Below are positions 423-11,900 of a stretch of 45,087 nucleotides of DNA, in pieces. The translations under genes and the position numbers were made by a program. Source of the stretch: an uncultured Verrucomicrobiota bacterium (lineage in GTDB: Bacteria > Verrucomicrobiota > Verrucomicrobiia > Opitutales > Opitutaceae). Position 1 is the first letter of the stretch; the number at the start of each line of letters is the position of its first letter. The DNA is taken from NCBI GenBank assembly GCA_903960515.1, contig CAJCBL010000242.1:1-45087 (forward strand), read 5' to 3'. The notes under the pieces were generated by a model. That model was not told the origin of the DNA, made no database searches, and saw only the letters and a program-made list of their open reading frames with translations.

Positions 423-1166
423 TCATGGCAGCTTGCGCCACCACACGTTCATCGAGTACGGGCGGCCGTAGTCGGCGTAACTGGTTTTCAAGATCGGCGT
501 CCAGTTGGCGGTGAAGGCGGAATCCGACATGTAGTAGACGGTGGGATCGATGGCGAGGGCGGCGGGCGGCGTGAAGTGCGTGGCGGCGGGAACCGTGGCG
601 TAGAGGTAGGGCACGAGGCCGTTGACCCAGGTCTGGCCGTCGCGCCGCCAGATGCAGTCGAAGAGATGGAAGGTGGCCGCTCCGGGCTTGAGCACGCGGT
701 GCAGGTCGCGTACGAGGTTCTCCCGGACGGCCTGGTCCTCGGGGGTGTGCTCGAGGGCGGAGATGGAGAAGACGAAGTCGAAGTGCGCGTCGGGCAACTG
801 CGGGTTGAAGCTGCCCAGGTAGTCGTAGACGATGCGGTAGTGCGGTGAGGTGAACTGGATCGGGCCGTTGCCCAGCCCTTCGCATTTGTCGATGTTCCAG
901 CATTCATAATCCTTCGACAGGAATTTGAGCACACGGCTGTCGCCGCCGCCCACGTCTAGGATGCGGGCACCCTTGGGGACGTTGGCGACGATGTAAGCGT
1001 ACATCAGGTAATCCTGGTAAACTTTGAGGTCGCAGACGGCCGGGTCGGGATCGCCCACGTTGTACGACTGGAAGGGCAGTCCTTTGAAGAGATCGAAGTG
1101 CCAGAGCCGGGACAGGGAAAACGCGGCGATGGTGTCGGGGGTTGGAGCGCGGTCGGGTGCGGACAT
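423..1166 (-). CDS. SAM-dependent methyltransferase, class I, of the polysaccharide cluster
   Basis: A 247-residue soluble protein. Motif I (ILDVGGGDSRVL, residues about 69-80) is the glycine-rich SAM loop. The acidic end of beta 2 follows (CWNIDK), then FDFVFSISALEHTPED, the usual motif IV/V region of class I methyltransferases, and RVLKPGA for the post-motif strand. I chose the ATG at 1166 over an in-frame TTG at 1172. The gene lies downstream of two glycosyltransferases and a membrane protein in one orientation, so it probably methylates a sugar or a glycan terminus. The substrate cannot be read from the sequence. Its C-terminus (NWTPILKTSYADYGRP) is clearly similar to the end of the fusion protein at 4063-5958. 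Confidence 0.85.
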   Translation of the reverse strand: MSAPDRAPTPDTIAAFSLSRLWHFDLFKGLPFQSYNVGDPDPAVCDLKVYQDYLMYAYIVANVPKGARILDVGGGDSRVLKFLSKDYECWNIDKCEGLGNGPIQFTSPHYRIVYDYLGSFNPQLPDAHFDFVFSISALEHTPEDQAVRENLVRDLHRVLKPGAATFHLFDCIWRRDGQTWVNGLVPYLYATVPAATHFTPPAALAIDPTVYYMSDSAFTANWTPILKTSYADYGRPYSMNVWWRKLP

Positions 1167-1192: not shown

Positions 1193-2935
1193 TCAGGACT
1201 GAGGCACCGGGTGGAGGAAAAAGGGGGTAGAGGCCGGGACGGACAGTAGGAACAGCGCCCAGCCCTGGGCCTCGAGGAGTTTGACGGGCTTGAGGTGGTC
1301 GGAGAGATGCAGCGGTTGGGCCCCCGGAGGCGGTTCGTGGATCTCCTCGCCTTGGTTGCGCACGTAGATGAGCAACTCGGTGGCTCGGGGTGCGGTAGCG
1401 GTGTACCAGTACTCCTGTCTAGGCAGCTTGCGGTAGGGCGAGTGGGTCTCGTTGTATTGGAAATACGGCGGCAATTGGACGAAGCGGATCGCGTCGGGAT
1501 GCTGTGCTTCGAAGGGGCGGGCCGCGGCCAAGAAGCTGTCGGTAGCAAACTGTGGGCGCAGTACCTCCAGTTCGACTTTCCAGGGGAGCTGTTTGCTCCA
1601 GTAGGTGGGCAGGGAGCACAACTCGATCGGGCTGCGGGCGGCTGATTGGTTGAGCGGGAATGAGCCTTCGTCCCATTTGCGGGCGAGCGCGATGTCGTGC
1701 AGGAAGACCCCTGCGAAGCCCAGCAGGGCGGCGGACCCGAGGAACCGGCCGCGAGGGAGGGCCGGCAGGGAGAGCAGCAGCAGCGGCACGGCGACGATGG
1801 CTGGCATGTAGTAGCGTCCGTCGCCCAAGGCGTTGTAGGCCATGCCGAGGCTGGGGGGCACAAGGAAGAAGGTCACTCCGGCCGATAAGGTGAGCAGGCT
1901 CCAGGCTTTTAGCCGGGAGGGCGTGGCGTCGCGCAGCACCGCCCCGCCCACCAGGGCCAAGGTGGCTACGAGGCTGACCAGCAGGATCGCACCGGCGAGC
2001 ATGCGGTCGGGGCCGGCGGGCACGGCGTCGAGGCGGGCGTCGAGCGGAGCAAGCCCGAGCAGGCAGGCGCTCTTGGTGAAGGCGCCGAGTACGCCCTGGA
2101 GCCGGGCGAGAAGAAAGGCCCAGCTGAAGGCCTGGTAGTCGTGGGGCGGTGCGATGCCGCCGTGGTGGGCCGAGGCGTTGAAGAGCAGCACAGGCGCATA
2201 GCACAGGAGCATGACGCAGGCAAAGAGCAGCCCGGCGGCGAGGGCGCGGCGCCAGTTGCGGCGCAACAGCAGGGCGATCGAGAGGCCCCAAGCGAGGGCG
2301 AGATAGGCCGCTGCGTAACGGAAATTTAACGCCAGACCGGTGAGTAGCCCGGCGCCAACCGAGGCGAGCGGCCAGCGCCAGCTCTCGGCGAAGAGCCAGG
2401 GAGTGAGCAGGGCCACCCACGGGCTGATAGCCCAGAGCGTGCCCTCGGTGCCGCCAGCCCAGGCGGAGAGGGTGAAGGGGAAGAAGAAACCCAGCAGGCA
2501 GGCGAGCGCTCCATGCCAGCGAGCCAGCGGCCCGAGGGCGGCCAGTAGCTGTGCCCCGGCCAGAGCCCAACCGAGCCAGCCAACGGCCAGGCAGACGCTG
2601 TCGAGGCTCTTCAAGGCTATGGGCAAGGGGAGCCCGTCGGCCAGCATCCAGGATATAACCATGGAAAAGCCGCCGGGGAACCAGGTGAGCGGCACCGGTT
2701 CGGGGGGCGTGAGCAGATCGGGCCCTTGGGTGGCGAAGTGGTCGGAGAGCAACCGCCCCTCGCGCAGGAGATATTGGGCTCCGTTGAGCTGGATGCCCAT
2801 GTCGTAGGTGACCGGGATGGAGAATCGCCAGCGGTCGGCCGCCACCAGCGCGGCACCGAGCATGCAACACATCACAAACCAAGCCGGGAAGCGCGGAGGG
2901 GCGGTAGGGCCCACTCGGGCGGTCGGTGTATCCAT
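1193..2935 (-). CDS. Polytopic membrane protein, GT-C-like, of the polysaccharide cluster
   Basis: A 580-residue protein with roughly ten hydrophobic segments, beginning AWFVMCCMLGAALVAADRW. An extracytoplasmic loop follows (YDMGIQLNGAQYLLREG), of the kind seen in GT-C glycosyltransferase-like proteins, where an acidic residue sits just after the first helix. The C-terminal 180 residues are soluble and include repeated aromatic residues. I recognise no exact family. The role is inferred from position between glycosyltransferase genes: transfer of a lipid-linked sugar or another membrane step of polysaccharide assembly. The start is the ATG at 2935; an upstream TTG at 2947 is also in frame. 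The 24-base spacing to the upstream glycosyltransferase supports co-transcription. Confidence 0.7.
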   Translation of the reverse strand: MDTPTARVGPTAPPRFPAWFVMCCMLGAALVAADRWRFSIPVTYDMGIQLNGAQYLLREGRLLSDHFATQGPDLLTPPEPVPLTWFPGGFSMVISWMLADGLPLPIALKSLDSVCLAVGWLGWALAGAQLLAALGPLARWHGALACLLGFFFPFTLSAWAGGTEGTLWAISPWVALLTPWLFAESWRWPLASVGAGLLTGLALNFRYAAAYLALAWGLSIALLLRRNWRRALAAGLLFACVMLLCYAPVLLFNASAHHGGIAPPHDYQAFSWAFLLARLQGVLGAFTKSACLLGLAPLDARLDAVPAGPDRMLAGAILLVSLVATLALVGGAVLRDATPSRLKAWSLLTLSAGVTFFLVPPSLGMAYNALGDGRYYMPAIVAVPLLLLSLPALPRGRFLGSAALLGFAGVFLHDIALARKWDEGSFPLNQSAARSPIELCSLPTYWSKQLPWKVELEVLRPQFATDSFLAAARPFEAQHPDAIRFVQLPPYFQYNETHSPYRKLPRQEYWYTATAPRATELLIYVRNQGEEIHEPPPGAQPLHLSDHLKPVKLLEAQGWALFLLSVPASTPFFLHPVPQS

Positions 2936-2959
2936 GGGCTTAGGCAATCGACGGGCTGG

Positions 2960-4000
2960 TTACGTCGCTTGCATCCGGGCGAGAGCGTCGGTGGCCAGGC
3001 GCAACTGGCGGCGCTTGTCGCGGATCTCGTTTTCGAGTTCGCGGATGTAGCGCTCCTTGCGGCCGAGTTCTACGCGGGCCTCGCCCAGTTTCTTGCCGGG
3101 GGACAGGGCCTGCTCGATCCACCAAGTCTGGGTGAAGCGTTCGAGGAAGCGCACGAAGAAGGTGAACTCGTCGAGGGCTGGGTCGGCGACGACGGGAGGC
3201 TGGTCGCCGAGTGCTAGTGAGAGGGGGCCGGTGGGCTGCTCGGCCAGTGTGCCATCGAAGGAGGTGTGGGTGGCGTCGGGCCCGTAGCCGAGGTTGCAGA
3301 TGAGGTTGCGGTGAGGGGCTACGGTGAGCCCTCCGGTTTTCCACAGGCTGAAGATGAGCTGGTAGTCCCAGGTATCAATGTTGCCGGCGAGCAGAGAGCG
3401 CAGGACATCCAGCCAGTACTCGCGCTCGATCATCGTCGGGCTTAGCCGGCGCACGATCGCGTCCCAGCCGGCGACGGGAAGACTGGTGAGATGGCGGTCG
3501 TAGGTTTCCCAGGTGCGCCGCCAGGTGGCCCAGCCCCAGATCTGGGCGTATTTGGAAAAATAGTGGCTGTGTGTGCAGGCGAGCGAGGCGGGGATGAAAT
3601 GATCCCCGGTGACGAGGGCCACACGCCCGTCGTTGCGGTAGCGCTCAAGCATCGTGGCGCAAAAGCGGAAGAAATCGGGGTGGGGCAGGCAGTCGTCCTC
3701 AAGGATGATACCCTCTTCCACCAGCGAGAAGAACCATCCGATTGCCGTGCTCACGGCGTTGCCGCACCCGAGATTGTTTTCGCGAAACAGGGTTGTGACC
3801 TCGCAGGGCCAGTCCACCGCGGTGGCCAGACGCCGGGTTTCGGCGCAGAGGGCCGCATCGCCGTCGCGCTCCGGGCGCGGGCCGTCGGCAGCTACAAAGA
3901 GGCGGTGCGGGCGCTGGGCTCGGATGCTCTCAAAGACCCGGGCGGTGACCGCCGGTCGATTGAAAACCAGAAAGAGGATCGGTGTGTGGTAGCCAACCAT
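2960..4000 (-). CDS. Glycosyltransferase, nucleotide-diphospho-sugar transferase fold (HlpA-like)
   Basis: A 346-residue protein with a GT-A fold signature. It opens TPILFLVFNRPAVTARVFESI, then VAADGPR, and has an acidic metal-binding triad within ILEDDCLPHPDFF (E101, D102, D103). This pattern is typical of the GT2-like family often annotated as hemolytic protein HlpA-like or nucleotide-diphospho-sugar transferase. The last 40 residues are highly charged and predicted to form a coiled coil (ERYIRELENEIRDKRRQLRL), which may mediate oligomerisation or partner binding. The start is an ATG without a Shine-Dalgarno sequence. The donor and acceptor sugars cannot be told from the sequence. Confidence 0.85.
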   Translation of the reverse strand: MVGYHTPILFLVFNRPAVTARVFESIRAQRPHRLFVAADGPRPERDGDAALCAETRRLATAVDWPCEVTTLFRENNLGCGNAVSTAIGWFFSLVEEGIILEDDCLPHPDFFRFCATMLERYRNDGRVALVTGDHFIPASLACTHSHYFSKYAQIWGWATWRRTWETYDRHLTSLPVAGWDAIVRRLSPTMIEREYWLDVLRSLLAGNIDTWDYQLIFSLWKTGGLTVAPHRNLICNLGYGPDATHTSFDGTLAEQPTGPLSLALGDQPPVVADPALDEFTFFVRFLERFTQTWWIEQALSPGKKLGEARVELGRKERYIRELENEIRDKRRQLRLATDALARMQAT

Positions 4001-4062: not shown

Positions 4063-5958
4063 TTAGTAGGGGCGAGCCCAGCAGAGGGTTTGGTAGAGCA
4101 GGCGGCCGAACTCGGCGTAGGTCTTCTTTGTCTGCGGCTGCCAGTCGCGGGCGTAGACGGATTCGTCCAGGAAGAACACGTCGGGATCGCAGAGGACGGC
4201 GTCGAGCCCCGGCCAAGGGGTGGTGGAGAGAAAGCGGCGACGCAGATGGCCGTAGGCGGGACCCGCCCAGAAGAAGGATGGGCTCAATACGGTGGTGAAG
4301 CTGTGGATATTCACTCCGCCGGGCTGGGTGCAGGAGTCCAGATAGAGCGCCAGTCCCTCTAGCTCGTGGGGGTTGTCGGGGATTTTGCCGCACCAGTCCG
4401 AGCTGGCGATGGCGGCGAACTGGGGAAAGCCGGCCAGCGGGGCGCGCTCCGAATCGGCCGGTGCGAGATGGGCCGGATCGCCGGAGTAACCGGTGCGCCG
4501 CCAGTGGGCGAGGTCTCGGATCGTCCACCAGCGAAGGCGGGGGGCGGCCAGGCGCACGATGGGCGGCAGTTCCGGGCCGAGAAAGAGCCCATCGCCGGCT
4601 GGATCGAGGCCTCGAAGCAGGTGGGCGGTGAGAGCTTGGAGCACCTCCCATTGGTCGAGTCGGGCGGGGTCGACGCCCGGACCCAGGGCGTAGGCGGCGG
4701 CTGAGCGGCGCGCGTAGGCGTAGCCGGCGGCGTGTTCGATACGGAACGGCCGCGGTGGCGGCGGGGGGGGATCTGCCATCCGCGTGGGCGGGAGCAAGGG
4801 GGCGGGTGCGTAGCCGGCCGGAAAGAGGCGGTGGAACGGCGCGGGTTGCGGGGCGCAGGCTGCCAGCGATTGCCAGATCCAGTCTCCGGGGTTGGCCAGG
4901 TGCAGGGCGGGGGCTGCCTCGCGGATACGCGAGCGGTAGGTGGTGCGGTGGGCGGGCTCGGCGAGCACTGTGATGGCCGATTGGACTGCCGCAGTATGAT
5001 GCAGGGCGCACAGGCCTGTGCCGTGGCGGGTAACGAAGCGGCCGGCGGCTGTCTCCGGGCTGCCCAACACGAGCACAGGGGTGTCGGTGCGCGCGTGGAG
5101 GAAGACCAGGCGGGAGGGCAGGCTAAGGTGGGAGAAGGCGGGGTTGTCGTCGGTGCCGTCGAGATCGCCGGAGGGGATCACCACGAAGGGGTACGAGGCA
5201 AGTGCGGCGACCAGGTCGGCTTCGGACAGGAACCCCAGACATCGGATACCGTCCGGCTCCCATTCGGCGGGGCTTCCGGTGAGCCAGGAGGCGTGGGGAC
5301 CGTTTCCATACCAATCGAGCCCGAGCCCGGTTTCGCGCAGCAGGGCGCGAAGTTGGGTGAGCCGCTGGGCGGTCCAGACGTTGCCGATCATGGCGGCTCG
5401 CAGCGGTTCGCCAGCTTCCGCACGCCAGTAGTTGGGCAGGATCGGGCCCAGTGCGGGCACGACCGGCGGCAGCAGGTGGAATCTGTGTCCGAATTTCTGG
5501 CGATAGGCGGCGCAGAGTTCGGCAGAGATGCCCAGGCAGAGGTCGGAGCAGGCCAGCAGTTGCGCCACCCAGCGGTCGGGCACATGCGGGGCATGGACGT
5601 TCTGGTCGTCCATGATGTACGTACACAGCGGGGCACTGGTGAGGCGCTTGGCGAGCACCCCATGCACAAACTCTTCGCGGTAGTAGGGGATGCAGAGGAT
5701 GCGGCGGATACGGTAGAGTGCGAGGATGGCGCGCAGGTGAATTTCTACCTCGGCCGGCTGCAGGTATCGCGAGCAGAGCTCGTGGTGGTGGGCCCCGAAG
5801 GTCTCCTGGCCTCCGTAAAGCGAGGTGGTGCGCAGGCATACAAACTCCCGGGAATCGGGGAAGAAGCGGCGCAACTGGATGCCGATGCCGTGGTGGTCGT
5901 TGGTCTCTACGGCACAGATCAATAGATCGCGTTCGGGGAGGCTGGAGTGGGCGGACAT
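4063..5958 (-). CDS. Glycosyltransferase fused to a degenerate methyltransferase-like domain
   Basis: A 631-residue protein. The first ~390 residues look like a GT-B glycosyltransferase: an N-terminal region with YIMDDQNVHAPHVPDRWVA, then RAAMIGNVWTAQRL and LDWYGNGPHASWL as the usual C-domain entry, and FVVIPSGDLDG. The C-terminal ~200 residues align in order with the neighbouring methyltransferase (423-1166). WEVLQALTAHLLRGLDPAG matches its helix before motif I, RWWTIRDL matches its beta 2, TQPGGVNIHSF matches LKPGAATFHLF, and the two C-termini are near-collinear. The SAM loop is lost, however: GLFLGPELPP stands where the neighbour has ILDVGGGDSR. I chose the ATG at 5958; the longer in-frame start at 6057 adds a low-complexity tail. 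Confidence 0.75.
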   Translation of the reverse strand: MSAHSSLPERDLLICAVETNDHHGIGIQLRRFFPDSREFVCLRTTSLYGGQETFGAHHHELCSRYLQPAEVEIHLRAILALYRIRRILCIPYYREEFVHGVLAKRLTSAPLCTYIMDDQNVHAPHVPDRWVAQLLACSDLCLGISAELCAAYRQKFGHRFHLLPPVVPALGPILPNYWRAEAGEPLRAAMIGNVWTAQRLTQLRALLRETGLGLDWYGNGPHASWLTGSPAEWEPDGIRCLGFLSEADLVAALASYPFVVIPSGDLDGTDDNPAFSHLSLPSRLVFLHARTDTPVLVLGSPETAAGRFVTRHGTGLCALHHTAAVQSAITVLAEPAHRTTYRSRIREAAPALHLANPGDWIWQSLAACAPQPAPFHRLFPAGYAPAPLLPPTRMADPPPPPPRPFRIEHAAGYAYARRSAAAYALGPGVDPARLDQWEVLQALTAHLLRGLDPAGDGLFLGPELPPIVRLAAPRLRWWTIRDLAHWRRTGYSGDPAHLAPADSERAPLAGFPQFAAIASSDWCGKIPDNPHELEGLALYLDSCTQPGGVNIHSFTTVLSPSFFWAGPAYGHLRRRFLSTTPWPGLDAVLCDPDVFFLDESVYARDWQPQTKKTYAEFGRLLYQTLCWARPY

Positions 5959-6381: not shown

Positions 6382-7815
6382 TCAGGCTGAGCCGACGATC
6401 ACGGTGGATTCCTGCTGCACGGGGCCGTAGATGCCGAGGTTGAATTGGGGGGCGATGTCGATGTAGGCGGCGTGGCCTACGCTGTCGGCGGCGGTGGAGC
6501 GGGTGAAATCGAAGGTGCCGTTGTCGAAGCGCGCGTTTTCTGGGAAGAGGTAGATGCCCGCGTAGGTGATGTATTTCCCGGCACGCAGGGGCAGCCGGGT
6601 GCGCAACTGCACAACGGCCTCCCCTCCTGGGGCGATGCTGAGGTGGCGGCCGTGGGTGCGGTCGGAACAGCTTAGCAACTCGACACCCTGCATCGTGCGC
6701 AGGTTGAGGGCGACCTGGAATAGCCCTTCGTAACCTCCGGCTGAGCCGAGTACGTACACGGCGATGGCTTCCTCGTCCCATTGCAGCACGGCGCTTCGTG
6801 CCCCCTTGGAGTCGAGGAAGAAGAAATTGTTGATCTGCACCCGGAGGTTGCCCTGGCGGGACTCGGGGGCGTGCTTCTCGTATTCGGTCCGGTTTTCCGC
6901 GAGCAGGGCGGCTACGACCGGGTCGGTGGCGGCGAGGCTGTGAGTGGCCAGGGCGCCGGAGCCCGCAGGGGTGGAAGAGGTGGCCACTGGCGGAGCGGGT
7001 TGCTCGGCCAGATCCATGCCCATGGTGCGGAGACAATCGCGCTGGTATGCCCCGCACACGTTGAGGCTCGGGCCTTGGGCGGCAGCACGGCCGGCGCTCA
7101 GCCAGACGGCCTGCTGGCAGAAGGCGCGGACGGTGGCGATGTCGTGCGACACGAAAAGAGTAGAACAGCCCGCCTGTTGGAGCGCGCGGATACGGGCAAA
7201 ACACTTCGATTGGAAAGGGGCGTCGCCCACAGAGAGTGCTTCGTCGACGATGAGAATGTCGGGCTCGACTGAGGACTGTACGGCGAACGCCAAGCGCATT
7301 AACATGCCGCTGCTGTAGGTCTTTACTGGCTGGTCGATGAAGTCGCCGATATCGGCGAAGGCGGCGATGGACTGGAACTTGGCGTCGGTTTCGGAGCGCG
7401 AGAGTCCTAACACGGCGGCGTTGAGGTAGACGTTCTCACGGCCGGTAAATTCGGGGTTGAAGCCGCTACCGAGTTCAAGAAGCGCGGCGACTCGACCGTT
7501 CACCCGGACGGAGCCAGTTGAGGGCTGGAGTGTGCCAGCGATGATCTGGAGTAGGGTAGACTTGCCGGAACCGTTGCGGCCGATGATGCCCACGCTCTCC
7601 CCTTTGCGCACTTGGAAAGAGATATCTTTTAGGGCGTAGAAATCGCGGTAGTAGCTCTTGGCCTTTTCCGAAATCCGATCGCGAGTCGGCGCCCCGCTGG
7701 GGAACAGATGCGCAGCGGCGTCGACCAACGGCGATTTGAGCCGGGCGGAAGGATCGTTCCAAATCCGGTAGGCTTTGGAGACGTTCTCCACGGAAATCGC
7801 AATTTGGTCGGACAT
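6382..7815 (-). CDS. wzt: O-antigen/polysaccharide ABC exporter ATPase with C-terminal sugar-binding domain (Wzt)
   Basis: This 477-residue protein would energise export of a lipid-linked polysaccharide across the inner membrane together with a Wzm permease. Walker A is GRNGSGKST (about 79-87), the signature is YSSGMLMRL (about 166-173), Walker B is DILIVDEALSVGD (about 185-197) and the H-loop is FVSHD. The N-terminal approach (VSKAYRIW, then FYALKDISF) is typical of the Wzt/TagH/KpsT group. Residues from about 310 on form a beta-rich domain (LRVQINNFFFLDSKGARSAVL onwards) matching the Wzt C-terminal carbohydrate-binding domain, which in characterised systems reads the capped glycan end. The cognate permease lies at 10782-11624, separated by two sugar dehydratase genes. 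The ATG start has no Shine-Dalgarno sequence. Confidence 0.93.
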   Translation of the reverse strand: MSDQIAISVENVSKAYRIWNDPSARLKSPLVDAAAHLFPSGAPTRDRISEKAKSYYRDFYALKDISFQVRKGESVGIIGRNGSGKSTLLQIIAGTLQPSTGSVRVNGRVAALLELGSGFNPEFTGRENVYLNAAVLGLSRSETDAKFQSIAAFADIGDFIDQPVKTYSSGMLMRLAFAVQSSVEPDILIVDEALSVGDAPFQSKCFARIRALQQAGCSTLFVSHDIATVRAFCQQAVWLSAGRAAAQGPSLNVCGAYQRDCLRTMGMDLAEQPAPPVATSSTPAGSGALATHSLAATDPVVAALLAENRTEYEKHAPESRQGNLRVQINNFFFLDSKGARSAVLQWDEEAIAVYVLGSAGGYEGLFQVALNLRTMQGVELLSCSDRTHGRHLSIAPGGEAVVQLRTRLPLRAGKYITYAGIYLFPENARFDNGTFDFTRSTAADSVGHAAYIDIAPQFNLGIYGPVQQESTVIVGSA

Positions 7816-8228: not shown

Positions 8229-9227
8229 TCAGGCCTTGGCTTCGATCTTGGCCAGTTCGAGATCGGAATCGACCATGAGCTTGGCCAGAGCGTGCATGCG
8301 CGTCTGGGGCTCCCAGCCGAGCTTGTTCTTGGCCTTCGAATAGTCGCCGATGAGGAGATCCACCTCGGCGGGGCGGGTGAAGCGCTCGTCGAACTTCACG
8401 TATTTCTGCCAGTCGAGATCGAGCGCGCCGAAGGAGGCGGCAAGGAAGTCCTTGATCGTCCAAGTCTCGTTGGTGGCCAGTACGTAGTCGTCGGGCTGGT
8501 CCTGCTGAAGCATGCGCCACATGCCTTCTACGTATTCGGCGGCGTAACCCCAATCGCGCTTGGAGTCGATGTTGCCCAGGTAGAGATCCTTTTGCAGGCC
8601 GAGTTTAATGCGGGCGGCTGCGATGGTGATCTTGCGGGTGACGAAGTTTTCGCCGCGGCGCGGGGACTCGTGGTTGAAGAGGATGCCCGAGCAGGCGAAG
8701 AGGTTGTACGACTCACGGTAGTTGATCGTGAGGTAGTGGGCGTAGACCTTGGCGCAGGCGTAGGGCGAGCGCGGATAAAGCGGGGTGGTCTCCGTTTGCG
8801 GGACTTCCTGGACCTTGCCGAACATCTCGGAAGAGGAGGCCTGGTAGTAACGCACTTTCTTGCCGATGCCGGACTCGATGATCGCTTCGAGGATACGCTG
8901 GGCGCCGAGACCGGTGACGTCGCCGGTATAGGTGGGGATGTCGAAGCTCACGCGCACATGGCTCTGGGCGGCGAGATTGTAGATCTCCTCGGGCTGGATC
9001 TTGTAGAGCAGCTTCACCAACGCTACGGCGTCGGTGAGATCGCCGTAGTGGAGGAAGAGGCGCTGGTTCTCACCATGTTCGTAACTGCGCAGGTGGTCGA
9101 TGCGGGTGCGGGTAACGGAGCTGGAACGGCGAACGATGCCGTGCACCTCGTAGCCCTTGGCAAGGAGGAGTTCTGCGAGATAGGAGCCGTCTTGGCCGGT
9201 GATACCGGTGATGAGTGCGCGTTTCAT
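8229..9227 (-). CDS. gmd: GDP-mannose 4,6-dehydratase
   Basis: A 332-residue extended short-chain dehydrogenase that converts GDP-D-mannose to GDP-4-keto-6-deoxy-D-mannose, the precursor of GDP-fucose, GDP-rhamnose and perosamine. The NADP-binding loop is [15 protein letters not shown] (residues about 7-21), followed by the family-typical HGIVRRSSS. The catalytic region is ASSSEMFGK (about 130-138) with Y156 and K160 in YACAK. The block [16 protein letters not shown] and the [16 protein letters not shown] segment are diagnostic of Gmd. The length is about 40 residues below E. coli Gmd (373), within the range of shorter bacterial homologues. The product probably feeds the glycan exported by the neighbouring Wzm/Wzt. 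Confidence 0.95.
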
Positions 9228-9421: not shown

Positions 9422-10399
9422 TTAGGCCAGCTTCTTGAGCTCGGAGTCGACCATTCGGGCGACGAGGTCGGTGAACGGAACTGTGTTTTCCCAACCGAGG
9501 AGGCGCCGGGCCTTGGAGGGATTGCCGCAAGGGGCGGTGGGCTCCACGGTCATCACCAGTTTCTGGTCGTGTTTCACGTAGTCGTGCCAGTCGAGGCCCA
9601 CGGTACGGAAGGCGAGGTCGACAAATTCCTCCACGGAGTGGAGTGCACCAGTGGCGAGGATGAAGTCGTCTACGGGGCTGGACTGGAGCATCATCCACAT
9701 GCCGCGCACGTAGTCGGGCGCCCAGCCCCAGTCGCGGCGTCCGCCCAGGGCGCCGAGCACCAGATCGGGCTGGAGGCCGTGTTTGATGCGGGCGGCGGCG
9801 CGGGCAATCTTCATGGTCACGAACGAGCCGCCGCGGCGGGGCGATTCGTGGTTGTAGAGGATAGCCGAACACGTTGGCAGGCCGTAGGCGATACGGTAGA
9901 TGCGGCCCATCTGCTGGGAGAACGCCTTGGCCGCCCCATAGGGAGTGGTCGGGTTGACGGGGGTCATCTCATCCTGCGGGGAGTGCGGCGGTGAGCCGAA
10001 GACTTCGCTGGAGGAGGCGTAGAGAAACTTGGTGGGCTCGGGGAGATCGCGGAGGATCTCGAGCAGTCGCAGGGTGCCCATGCCGATACTGTCGACGGTG
10101 GCCTCCGGCAGCTCGAGGCTGAGGCGGGGGCTGGACTGGCCGGCGAGGTGGTAGAATTCGCTGGGCCGGGCCTTGGCGATGATGCGGCGCAGGTGGGTGG
10201 CGTCCTCGTAGGAGCCGTTATGGAGGAAGAGGCGCCGCCCCAGTATCGCCGGGTCGTTTACAAGATGGGCGATGTTGCTGTGGCCGAGGGTATCCGGGCG
10301 ATGGACTAGCCCGTGCACCTCATAATCCTTTTCGAGGAGGAATTCAGTGAGATAGGAACCGTCCTGGCCGGTGATGCCGGTGATGAAGGCGCGTGGCAT
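9422..10399 (-). CDS. Second GDP-mannose 4,6-dehydratase family protein
   Basis: A 325-residue paralogue of the gene at 8229-9227. It shares [25 protein letters not shown] at the N-terminus, a catalytic block ASSSEVFG (about 128-135) with Y154 and K158 in YGAAK, and [16 protein letters not shown]. It differs in the loop after beta 2 (HRPDTLGHSNIAHL replaces [14 protein letters not shown]), where the substrate ribose and phosphate are bound. It may therefore act on a different nucleotide sugar, or perform the next step, such as a reductase or epimerase reaction on the keto sugar. Family membership is clear from the sequence; the exact reaction is not. Confidence 0.8.
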   Translation of the reverse strand: MPRAFITGITGQDGSYLTEFLLEKDYEVHGLVHRPDTLGHSNIAHLVNDPAILGRRLFLHNGSYEDATHLRRIIAKARPSEFYHLAGQSSPRLSLELPEATVDSIGMGTLRLLEILRDLPEPTKFLYASSSEVFGSPPHSPQDEMTPVNPTTPYGAAKAFSQQMGRIYRIAYGLPTCSAILYNHESPRRGGSFVTMKIARAAARIKHGLQPDLVLGALGGRRDWGWAPDYVRGMWMMLQSSPVDDFILATGALHSVEEFVDLAFRTVGLDWHDYVKHDQKLVMTVEPTAPCGNPSKARRLLGWENTVPFTDLVARMVDSELKKLA

Positions 10400-10781: not shown

Positions 10782-11624
10782 TCAGAGTACGTCGGCGAAG
10801 GCGGGGCGCAGTTTGTGGAAAATCCAGTAGCCGGCCACTGCGGTAGCTATACTGATACAGTAGAGGTAGGCGAGCGGCCCCAAGGTCAAAGGTTGGTGGC
10901 GCAGGATGACATCGCGCGAGAGCTCGATGGTGTGAATGAGCGGGTTGAATTGCAGGATGTTCCAAGCCGCGGGCGACTTCTCGATGATCATCGTAGCCGG
11001 GTAGAAAATCGCGCTTGCGAACATCAGCGACATGGTGAGGAAACCGGTGAACTGGGTGACGTCGCGGAAAAACACTCCGATGGCCGCCGCCGCCCAAGCT
11101 ACGCCCAGGGTAAGCAGCAGGAACGGGGTGAAAATTAGCGGCAGCCAGAGCACATTCCATCTCAGCCCTGGCCCCAACAGTGCCACTCCGATCAGAGCGA
11201 GACTGATGCTGATAAGAAAATGAACGAACGAGGCTCCGACGGCGGCCACCGGCAGGATCTCCAGCGGGAAGACCACTTTCTTTACGAAGTTTGGGTTGGC
11301 CACGATCACTGTAGGGGCCACCCCGAGCACTTCGGCGATGAAGTGAAAGATGCTAAGTCCCACAAAGATGCTTAGCGCGTAGGTCTCAGGGCTCTGATCG
11401 TGCGCTTTGCCGCCAAACACATAGCCAAACACAAACACATACAGCCCCAGCATCAGCAGCGGATTGAGGATCGACCAGATCAGCCCGAGGTGGCTGCCCT
11501 TGTGGCGCAGCTCTACGTTGCGCTGGATGAATTGCCAGAGCAGAGCGCGATGGCGGACCAAGGGGCTCACTCCATCGAACTGTGCCAACCATTGCGATCC
11601 GGCCGTGGGATTGTTTTGCGCCAT
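10782..11624 (-). CDS. wzm: O-antigen/polysaccharide ABC exporter permease (Wzm)
   Basis: A 280-residue ABC-2 type permease. The N-terminal cytoplasmic segment (RHRALLWQFIQRNVELRHKGSHLG) is the conserved amphipathic interface region of Wzm/TagG/KpsM proteins. Six hydrophobic segments follow, starting with LIWSILNPLLMLGLYVFVFGYVF. FLTMSLMFASAIFYPATMI and FNPLIHTIELSRDVIL are typical of the family's last periplasmic loop. The partner ATPase is at 6382-7815. The ATG at 11624 gives the usual family N-terminus; the frame is open further up, but that sequence is low-complexity. The stop codon is immediately followed by a repeat element. Confidence 0.92.
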   Translation of the reverse strand: MAQNNPTAGSQWLAQFDGVSPLVRHRALLWQFIQRNVELRHKGSHLGLIWSILNPLLMLGLYVFVFGYVFGGKAHDQSPETYALSIFVGLSIFHFIAEVLGVAPTVIVANPNFVKKVVFPLEILPVAAVGASFVHFLISISLALIGVALLGPGLRWNVLWLPLIFTPFLLLTLGVAWAAAAIGVFFRDVTQFTGFLTMSLMFASAIFYPATMIIEKSPAAWNILQFNPLIHTIELSRDVILRHQPLTLGPLAYLYCISIATAVAGYWIFHKLRPAFADVL

Positions 11625-11684
11625 AAGCGGCGGGCACTTCACCCTTCCCGTGGAGCTGAGGCAAAGCATTTTCCTCGGAGCTGA

Positions 11685-11900
11685 GCCGCGACCTTGCGGT
11701 CGGACTGAAGCGTCACGCCTGGACCGGCGGCATAGATTCCCTTCCGGCGTAGCAGGAGCGTGCTTGCGCACGATTCGCGTCGCCGTTCATCAAGCCATCG
11801 CGAGCAAGCTCGCTCCTACAACCGATCCACGTCCCCCCCTGAGGAGGGGCGGGCCTTGTGTCCACACCTCTGTCGTAGGGTCGGACTCCTTGGGTACGGC
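11685..11900 (-). repeat. Variant MITE/REP-like element (216 bp) abutting the lptB stop codon
   Basis: On the minus strand the lptB stop TGA is directly followed by GCCGTACCCA, and the other end is AGGTCGCGGC at 11685-11694, an imperfect terminal repeat. The interior carries a hairpin (AGGAGCGTGCTTGCGCACGA at 11754 paired with ATCGCGAGCAAGCTCGCTCC at 11797). It also carries a GGGCCTTGTGTCC module (11850-11862) found in other repeats of this window. The element appears to be a composite of two modules and separates lptB from wzm. Confidence 0.65.

Follow-up and report, generated by a model that had tools for sequence, protein, structure and literature searches.

Why would a glycosyltransferase end in a methyltransferase-like domain with a broken cofactor site when an active-looking methyltransferase is encoded nearby? 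In several exported polysaccharides a methyl cap stops chain growth, and the balance between elongation and capping is incompletely understood. The question arose from a stretch of 45,087 nucleotides (the window, contig CAJCBL010000242.1) of an uncultured Verrucomicrobiota bacterium, whose assembly comprises 5.5 Mb in 379 contigs. An earlier note had described the gene at 4063-5958 as a glycosyltransferase fused to a decayed copy of the methyltransferase (MT) encoded at 423-1166, and had proposed that the dead domain binds the active enzyme or the glycan end. Both sets of coordinates were right, and both genes lie on the minus strand (Table 1).

Table 1. Features of the fused gene and its surroundings in the window
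Feature	Position	Strand	Details
MT, class I SAM-dependent, active-looking paralogue	423..1166	-	247 aa; Pfam Methyltransf_11 (PF08241)
MT C-terminal tail W222...W243, counterpart of the fused domain's tail	438..503	-	Alignment and translation
Intact SAM motif I of MT, DVGGGDSR	933..956	-	GGG, S and R invariant in 6/6 active-type relatives
584-aa protein between the GT2-like gene and MT	1193..2947	-	Hydrophobic by eye; membrane protein likely
GT2-like glycosyltransferase	2960..4000	-	Pfam below cut-off; short charged C-terminal tail, coiled coil by eye
Fused gene, GT-B glycosyltransferase and putative pseudo-methyltransferase	4063..5958	-	ATG at 5958, stop at 4063; 631 aa; open frame
Putative pseudo-methyltransferase domain	4066..4698	-	Residues 421-631; hhalign, pTM 0.77, Foldseek and VIA-align
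Conserved C-terminal tail W606...W627, common to MT	4078..4143	-	Alignments and translation
Degenerate SAM loop LGPELP	4564..4581	-	Residues 460-465; alignments and translation
Proline-rich linker	4699..4839	-	13 Pro in 47 residues; pLDDT <50 at 391-403 and 407-420
Glycosyltransferase domain, predicted GT-B fold, GT4-like	4840..5937	-	Residues ~8-373; AlphaFold2 model with pLDDT of mostly 76-98 per block
Wzt-like ABC transporter ATPase of a glycan exporter	6382..7815	-	Pfam ABC_tran; top NCBIfam hits, below cut-off, are ATPases of polysaccharide export
Two adjacent divergent GDP-mannose-4,6-dehydratase-type enzymes	8229-9227, 9422-10399	-	
ABC-2 membrane subunit (Wzm-like)	10782..11771	-	Pfam ABC2_membrane, E 9.2e-22

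Results

Architecture of the fused protein

The fused protein has full-length relatives in five other genomes. Its full-length model, built from 23 rows (pLDDT 82, pTM 0.75), consists of a GT-B domain, a linker and a methyltransferase-like domain, in that order. The N-terminal domain is predicted to adopt the GT-B fold along its whole length, at about residues 8-369, as VIA-align superposed it on HepE (4xsp) with a Z of 25.4 over 333 aligned positions (rmsd 3.9). We take the domain to be GT4-like; its predicted fold is that of GT4-like GT-B enzymes such as HepE, from which the window protein differs in having no Pfam or NCBIfam match. Searches of the fused protein against Pfam, NCBIfam and PADLOC returned no matches, and a sequence-profile search of the PDB gave no chain at E <= 1. 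A Pfam glycosyltransferase family was matched by none of the 23 members of this GT-B group (one has a chance-level DUF2017 match), and NCBIfam gave no match for the four members tried.

The C-terminal domain is homologous to the neighbouring methyltransferase

The gene at 423-1166 encodes a class I SAM-dependent methyltransferase, judging from its Pfam domain (PF08241, E 1.4e-7, 32.5 bits versus a cut-off of 21.2) and its intact motif I. The C-terminal domain of the fused protein is collinear with it, as the earlier note had claimed for the last 200 residues or so. Local alignment of the C-terminal 206 residues with MT scored 100, a value reached by none of 1000 shuffles (33.1 +/- 5.0), and BLASTP matched residues 527-629 to MT at E 3e-7. 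A profile-profile comparison (hhalign) of five fused C-terminal domains with four MT orthologues gave a probability of 98.9% and an E of 3.5e-17 over 226 collinear columns, at 17% identity. The shuffles and hhalign together rule out chance resemblance. The homology starts at about residue 406, ahead of the Rossmann core, takes in the last 15 or so residues of the linker and ends at the last tryptophan. The distinctive C-terminal ends, WTPILKTSYADYGRPYSMNVWW in the fused domain and WQPQTKKTYAEFGRLLYQTLCW in MT, align as had been noticed. The N-terminal extension from about residue 406, absent from the earlier note, is likewise common to both proteins.

The earlier note had made its reading depend on whether structure prediction would give a methyltransferase fold in residues 430-631. 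Such a fold was predicted, with middling scores. The domain model was built from five pseudo-MT rows alone (mean pLDDT 74, pTM 0.77), so that MT sequences could not steer it. The best Foldseek match was RebM (3bus, E 1.4e-4), and the top PDB matches RebM, BioC and NodS had E values of 1.4e-4 to 2.1e-4, TM-scores of 0.36-0.46 and rmsd values of 11-12 A; the best 50 rows ranged over TM 0.2-0.5 and rmsd 5.5-18 A. VIA-align matched BioC (8x8j) with a Z of 9.6 (160 aligned, rmsd 4.8 A), in a search where 72 of 1000 chains reached a Z of 8. Judged by title, the 50 rows listed consist mostly of methyltransferases or SAM/SAH complexes; the few titles among them that name no methyltransferase include PsoA, lovastatin synthase, FASN and the pre-40S ribosome. 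Model confidence is low at residues 563-568 and 578-587 of the fused protein. Since the middling structural scores and the profile match stand together, we regard the predicted Rossmann-like methyltransferase fold as settled.

Loss of the cofactor site and an inverted pattern of conservation

Residues 71-78 of MT (DVGGGDSR) align with the region of LGPELP (460-465) in the fused domain, which bears out the reported replacement of the SAM loop. The corresponding segments of the six fused proteins read LGPELP, LGSHIP, LDPHPP, LDDAAG, LGTRIP and FGPDFG, and all six domains lack the glycine-rich motif I, whether as E/D-x-G-x-G-x-G or as the subfamily's D/E-x-GGG. The inspection of homologues that the earlier note had called for thus found the loss in every one, in six genomes of five genera. 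Several MT-invariant residues are gone in 6/6 (MT numbering: G74, G75, S77, R78, N91, E139, H140 and D170), while H167 and W222 are retained in 6/6. Compared with six active-type MTs, a term meaning that the motifs are intact as judged by sequence, the fused domains retain 43 of 186 cells in 31 invariant columns. With the conserved cofactor motifs of a homologous enzyme family missing, the fused domain qualifies as a putative pseudoenzyme that probably does not bind SAM.

Conservation is inverted between the two groups: MT is best conserved in its SAM half, and the fused domain in its C-terminal part, above all the tail. In all six pairs of MT orthologues the N-half is more alike (72-80%) than the C-half (45-69%). 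Among the fused domains, a first split gave a more similar C-half in 10/10 pairs (0.61/0.63 in the closest), and a second put the C-half ahead in 5/6 matched pairs, L016/L054 being level (56/138, 41/101). The regional counts of retained MT-invariant cells were 44/210 in the N-terminal extension, 14/72 in motif I, 8/90 in post-I, 4/90 in the middle, 23/96 in motif IV-V, 22/72 in the next region, 11/60 in residues 173-204 and 47/84 in the tail; the best-shared part is therefore the tail and not the whole C-half. This pattern fits relaxed constraint on the cofactor half together with ongoing selection on the remainder. The sequence of G438/L072 was left out of alignments A2-A4 and the first model, and included in A5, the tree, the regional cell counts, the dN/dS estimates and the count of invariant columns; the alignment rows of L016 and L055 start at the preceding stop rather than at a chosen start codon.

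Distribution and origin of the fusion

The fusion occurs in six genomes (G000, which contains the window, G006, G072, G169, G438 and G597), which span five genera of one Verrucomicrobia family, G169 and G597 belonging to the same genus. Two other genomes of the window's own genus do not have it. The fusion in locus L007 comes from a Verrucomicrobia MAG record, and the same contig is present in G597, a member of the window's family. When 252 genomes of the family were scanned with the domain profile, seven matched at E <= 1e-3, namely the six carriers and G444, whose match is an ordinary methyltransferase with an intact loop (GCGTGG). In a sample of 387 genomes of the phylum, the four matches at E <= 1e-5 all fall in the window's family. 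Plasmids gave no match to the domain, and none of 23 pattern matches in viral contigs was confirmed. The same transferase occurs without the domain in cyanobacteria, Gemmatimonadetes and the distant Verrucomicrobia G233 and G278, and among nine loci of relatives L007 alone has it.

The transferase domain was also observed in other arrangements. The cyanobacterial loci L008, L009 and L013 encode two or three tandem copies per protein, and L010 and L015 have two adjacent genes. In G005, of the window's family, it ends a protein of 1088 aa (L017 8685-11948(-)) that has another glycosyltransferase domain and TPR repeats, and is without the pseudo-MT.

In a tree that included 7 of the 28 more distant methyltransferase ORFs (the parts around the domain) and both nearer relatives, the six fused domains form one clade (support 100/100), inside a larger group (96/97) that also contains the four MTs and two more distant relatives. 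Because the six homologues form one clade, the fusion and the loss of the SAM loop look ancestral and not like recent decay; the domains were probably fused once, and the cofactor site was probably lost once. Recent decay or an assembly error is ruled out by the same fusion, in open frames, in six genomes of five genera. The branch that connects MT with the distant relatives had a support of 56/0 and a p-AU of 0.499, which does not fix the nearest relative of the fused domains. Of the claim that the domain is a decayed copy of the neighbouring MT, descent from the same family stands, while naming this MT as the source is too specific: a copy of the neighbouring gene is possible, and the tree leaves room for an older relative.

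The locus

The fused gene, the GT2-like gene, the gene for the 584-aa protein and the MT gene follow one another on the minus strand with gaps of 62, 12 and 26 bases, from which we infer that the four probably form one operon. The 584-aa protein matched no Pfam or NCBIfam family, and BLAST found no counterpart of it in the other five fusion loci; perhaps it is a GT-C transferase. Upstream of the fused gene, the Wzt-like ATPase, the dehydratases and the Wzm-like permease mark the locus as an ABC-exporter polysaccharide cluster, and the two dehydratase-type enzymes suggest that the glycan includes a GDP-deoxyhexose. Wzt_C was matched by the exporter ATPase of L007 and, below the Pfam cut-off, by that of L055. 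The window's ATPase has no Wzt_C match at E <= 0.001, so that a cap-reading exporter is not supported there.

In G006 and G072, the gene upstream of the fused gene encodes a GT2 protein whose long C-terminus is repetitive and coiled-coil-like (L016 14490-16511(-) and L055 13574-15184(-)). This C-terminus is reminiscent of the molecular rulers of chain terminators; in the window, that place is taken by the Wzt-like ATPase.

Discussion

Our analysis revealed a fusion that is real and conserved in one family, and that belongs to a familiar type in which a modular glycosyltransferase carries a pseudoenzyme domain. The homology, the predicted fold, the broken loop and the open frames in 6/6 uphold the description of a putative dead domain on a glycosyltransferase beside an active-looking paralogue. 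Most likely the domain assists the transferase to which it is fused, by holding the glycan acceptor or by docking a partner.

Between these functions we tentatively favor the former. A class I methyltransferase domain of MT's family would have been joined once to a GT-B (GT4-like) transferase in an ancestor within the Verrucomicrobia family, and would then have lost its SAM site. The domain, now non-catalytic, would retain some of the acceptor-recognising side of the ancestral methyltransferase and would offer the end of the growing glycan to the attached transferase. In genomes that have it, the free MT would methylate this glycan end or a similar one, possibly to cap and terminate the chain ahead of Wzm/Wzt export. 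The retained part is presumably the acceptor side, an assignment that comes from general knowledge of class I methyltransferases rather than from a solved relative, and the retained residues could equally well form a docking face or a folding core. The proposal of the earlier note that the domain binds the glycan end is thus compatible with what the domain has retained and is our preferred reading, although we infer the binding, and its link to capping and export, indirectly.

The other half of that proposal, binding to the active enzyme, would make the domain a prozyme, in which the pseudo-MT forms a heteromer with the neighbouring MT, activates or recruits it, and ties methylation (capping) to the transferase. 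There is a precedent in TbPRMT1 PRO, which serves TbPRMT1 ENZ (PMC10211241). If the domain were made to bind MT, both should travel together, as is seen in four of the six genomes, where they lie in the same gene run about 1.1-2.9 kb apart and the MT orthologues are 61-65% identical to the window's. MT was searched for in 200 family genomes and the 387-genome phylum sample; in the latter, its five profile matches at E <= 1e-12 are those four and a distant relative in G038, and the family search added distant relatives in G515. The profile found no MT orthologue in G438 (91% complete) or G597 (88% complete); it retrieved the fused domain itself in both, and two weak distant matches in G597. The profile search was repeated on G438, G597 and G005, and the genome of L007 was searched with the MT protein. 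The fused domains of G597/L007 and G438 nevertheless persist with the same conserved tail. At L007 the genes beyond the fused gene and the GT2 gene lie on the opposite strand, which shows that the contig continues past GT2. At this completeness an MT may have been missed, but this would have to have happened twice. Binding to the active enzyme is thus weakened as the general function, though possible in the other four genomes, and as an explanation of the domain we consider it doubtful.

A GT2 orthologue directly follows the fused gene in all six genomes, whereas in two of them no MT orthologue was found, which weakens the idea that the domain mainly serves the neighbouring MT. The domain could instead dock the adjacent GT2 enzyme, or another member of an assembly complex, without binding glycan itself. 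The GT2 orthologues are 52-59% identical to the window's and match it to residues 343-346, while other GT2 matches stop at residues 164-306, with the exception of a second copy in G438 that reaches 345. Adjacency is, however, no proof of contact, and we rate a pure docking role as rather unlikely.

That the fused domain still works as a methyltransferase, with SAM bound by another loop, is quite improbable. The hydrophobic strand ahead of the loop is retained, G73 is kept in 4/6 and glycines are still found in the loop of L072; an Asp stands one column past the post-I D93 of MT in 5/6, which makes the loss of the post-I acid dependent on the alignment; and loss of a motif is no strict proof of inactivity. 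However, every fused domain has lost D170, the EH pair and the loop residues GG, S and R, and the SAM half is the most relaxed part. If the domain were a functionless leftover, drifting behind a working glycosyltransferase, this would explain its lower conservation relative to the GT domain in 10/10 pairs, but such a leftover is highly improbable given the intact frame in 6/6 across five genera, the 21 columns invariant in all six, and a dN below dS (by simple counting, with dS near saturation, the closest pair has dN 0.28 and dS 1.28 in the pseudo-MT domain, and dN 0.12 and dS 2.86 in the transferase domain).

Our preferred reading, a holder of the glycan end, can be set beside known systems. 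WsaE of Geobacillus stearothermophilus is reported to combine a methyltransferase with two rhamnosyltransferase domains for an ABC-exported S-layer glycan; it adds a methyl group to the end of the chain, for which Wzt is a predicted binding partner (PMC2943079). The fused protein resembles it in carrying a methyltransferase-type domain on a glycosyltransferase in an ABC-exporter cluster. In WsaE the domain is N-terminal and active, whereas here it is C-terminal with a broken SAM loop, and the active-looking MT is a separate gene. WbdD and Klebsiella ORF6-O7 are described as methylating terminators of ABC-exported O-polysaccharides (PMC11231755); the likeness lies in a methyltransferase within an ABC-exporter O-polysaccharide cluster, and capping is the role proposed for the free MT. 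WbdD is an active methyltransferase with a coiled-coil ruler. The fused protein has no intact SAM loop, and its model contains no long coiled coil, the longest helix being 18 residues; it is not a WbdD-type chain terminator.

For a dead methyltransferase domain as such there are parallels elsewhere. TbPRMT1 PRO is reported as a methyltransferase that is predicted to be dead and that makes its live paralogue more active (PMC10211241). Its methyltransferase fold, with cofactor binding lost, persists for structure or regulation; it belongs to protein-arginine methylation, whereas the fused domain sits on a glycosyltransferase. FASN's modifying portion is among the rows that VIA-align listed for the pseudo-MT model. 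The psi-ME domain of animal fatty acid synthase is likewise a methyltransferase fold maintained for a structural or regulatory role after cofactor binding was lost, and it differs from the fused domain in belonging to fatty acid synthesis rather than to a glycosyltransferase. A search of open-licence papers found none on an inactive or degenerate methyltransferase domain joined to a glycosyltransferase; among the matches listed, a capsule-locus paper uses "pseudo-methyltransferase" for two genes, one described as truncated.

This study also provides insight into the GT-B enzymes concerned, since the fusion marks a transferase group that is without a Pfam (23 members tried) or NCBIfam (4 tried) match. 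A dead domain resembling a capping enzyme, placed on a transferase beside the live enzyme, would be a directly testable arrangement. More speculatively, and with little confidence, the elongating and capping enzymes may compete for the same chain end, or hand it over, through homologous domains of which one is dead and one alive. If this is true, direct competition for the chain end would set the chain length.
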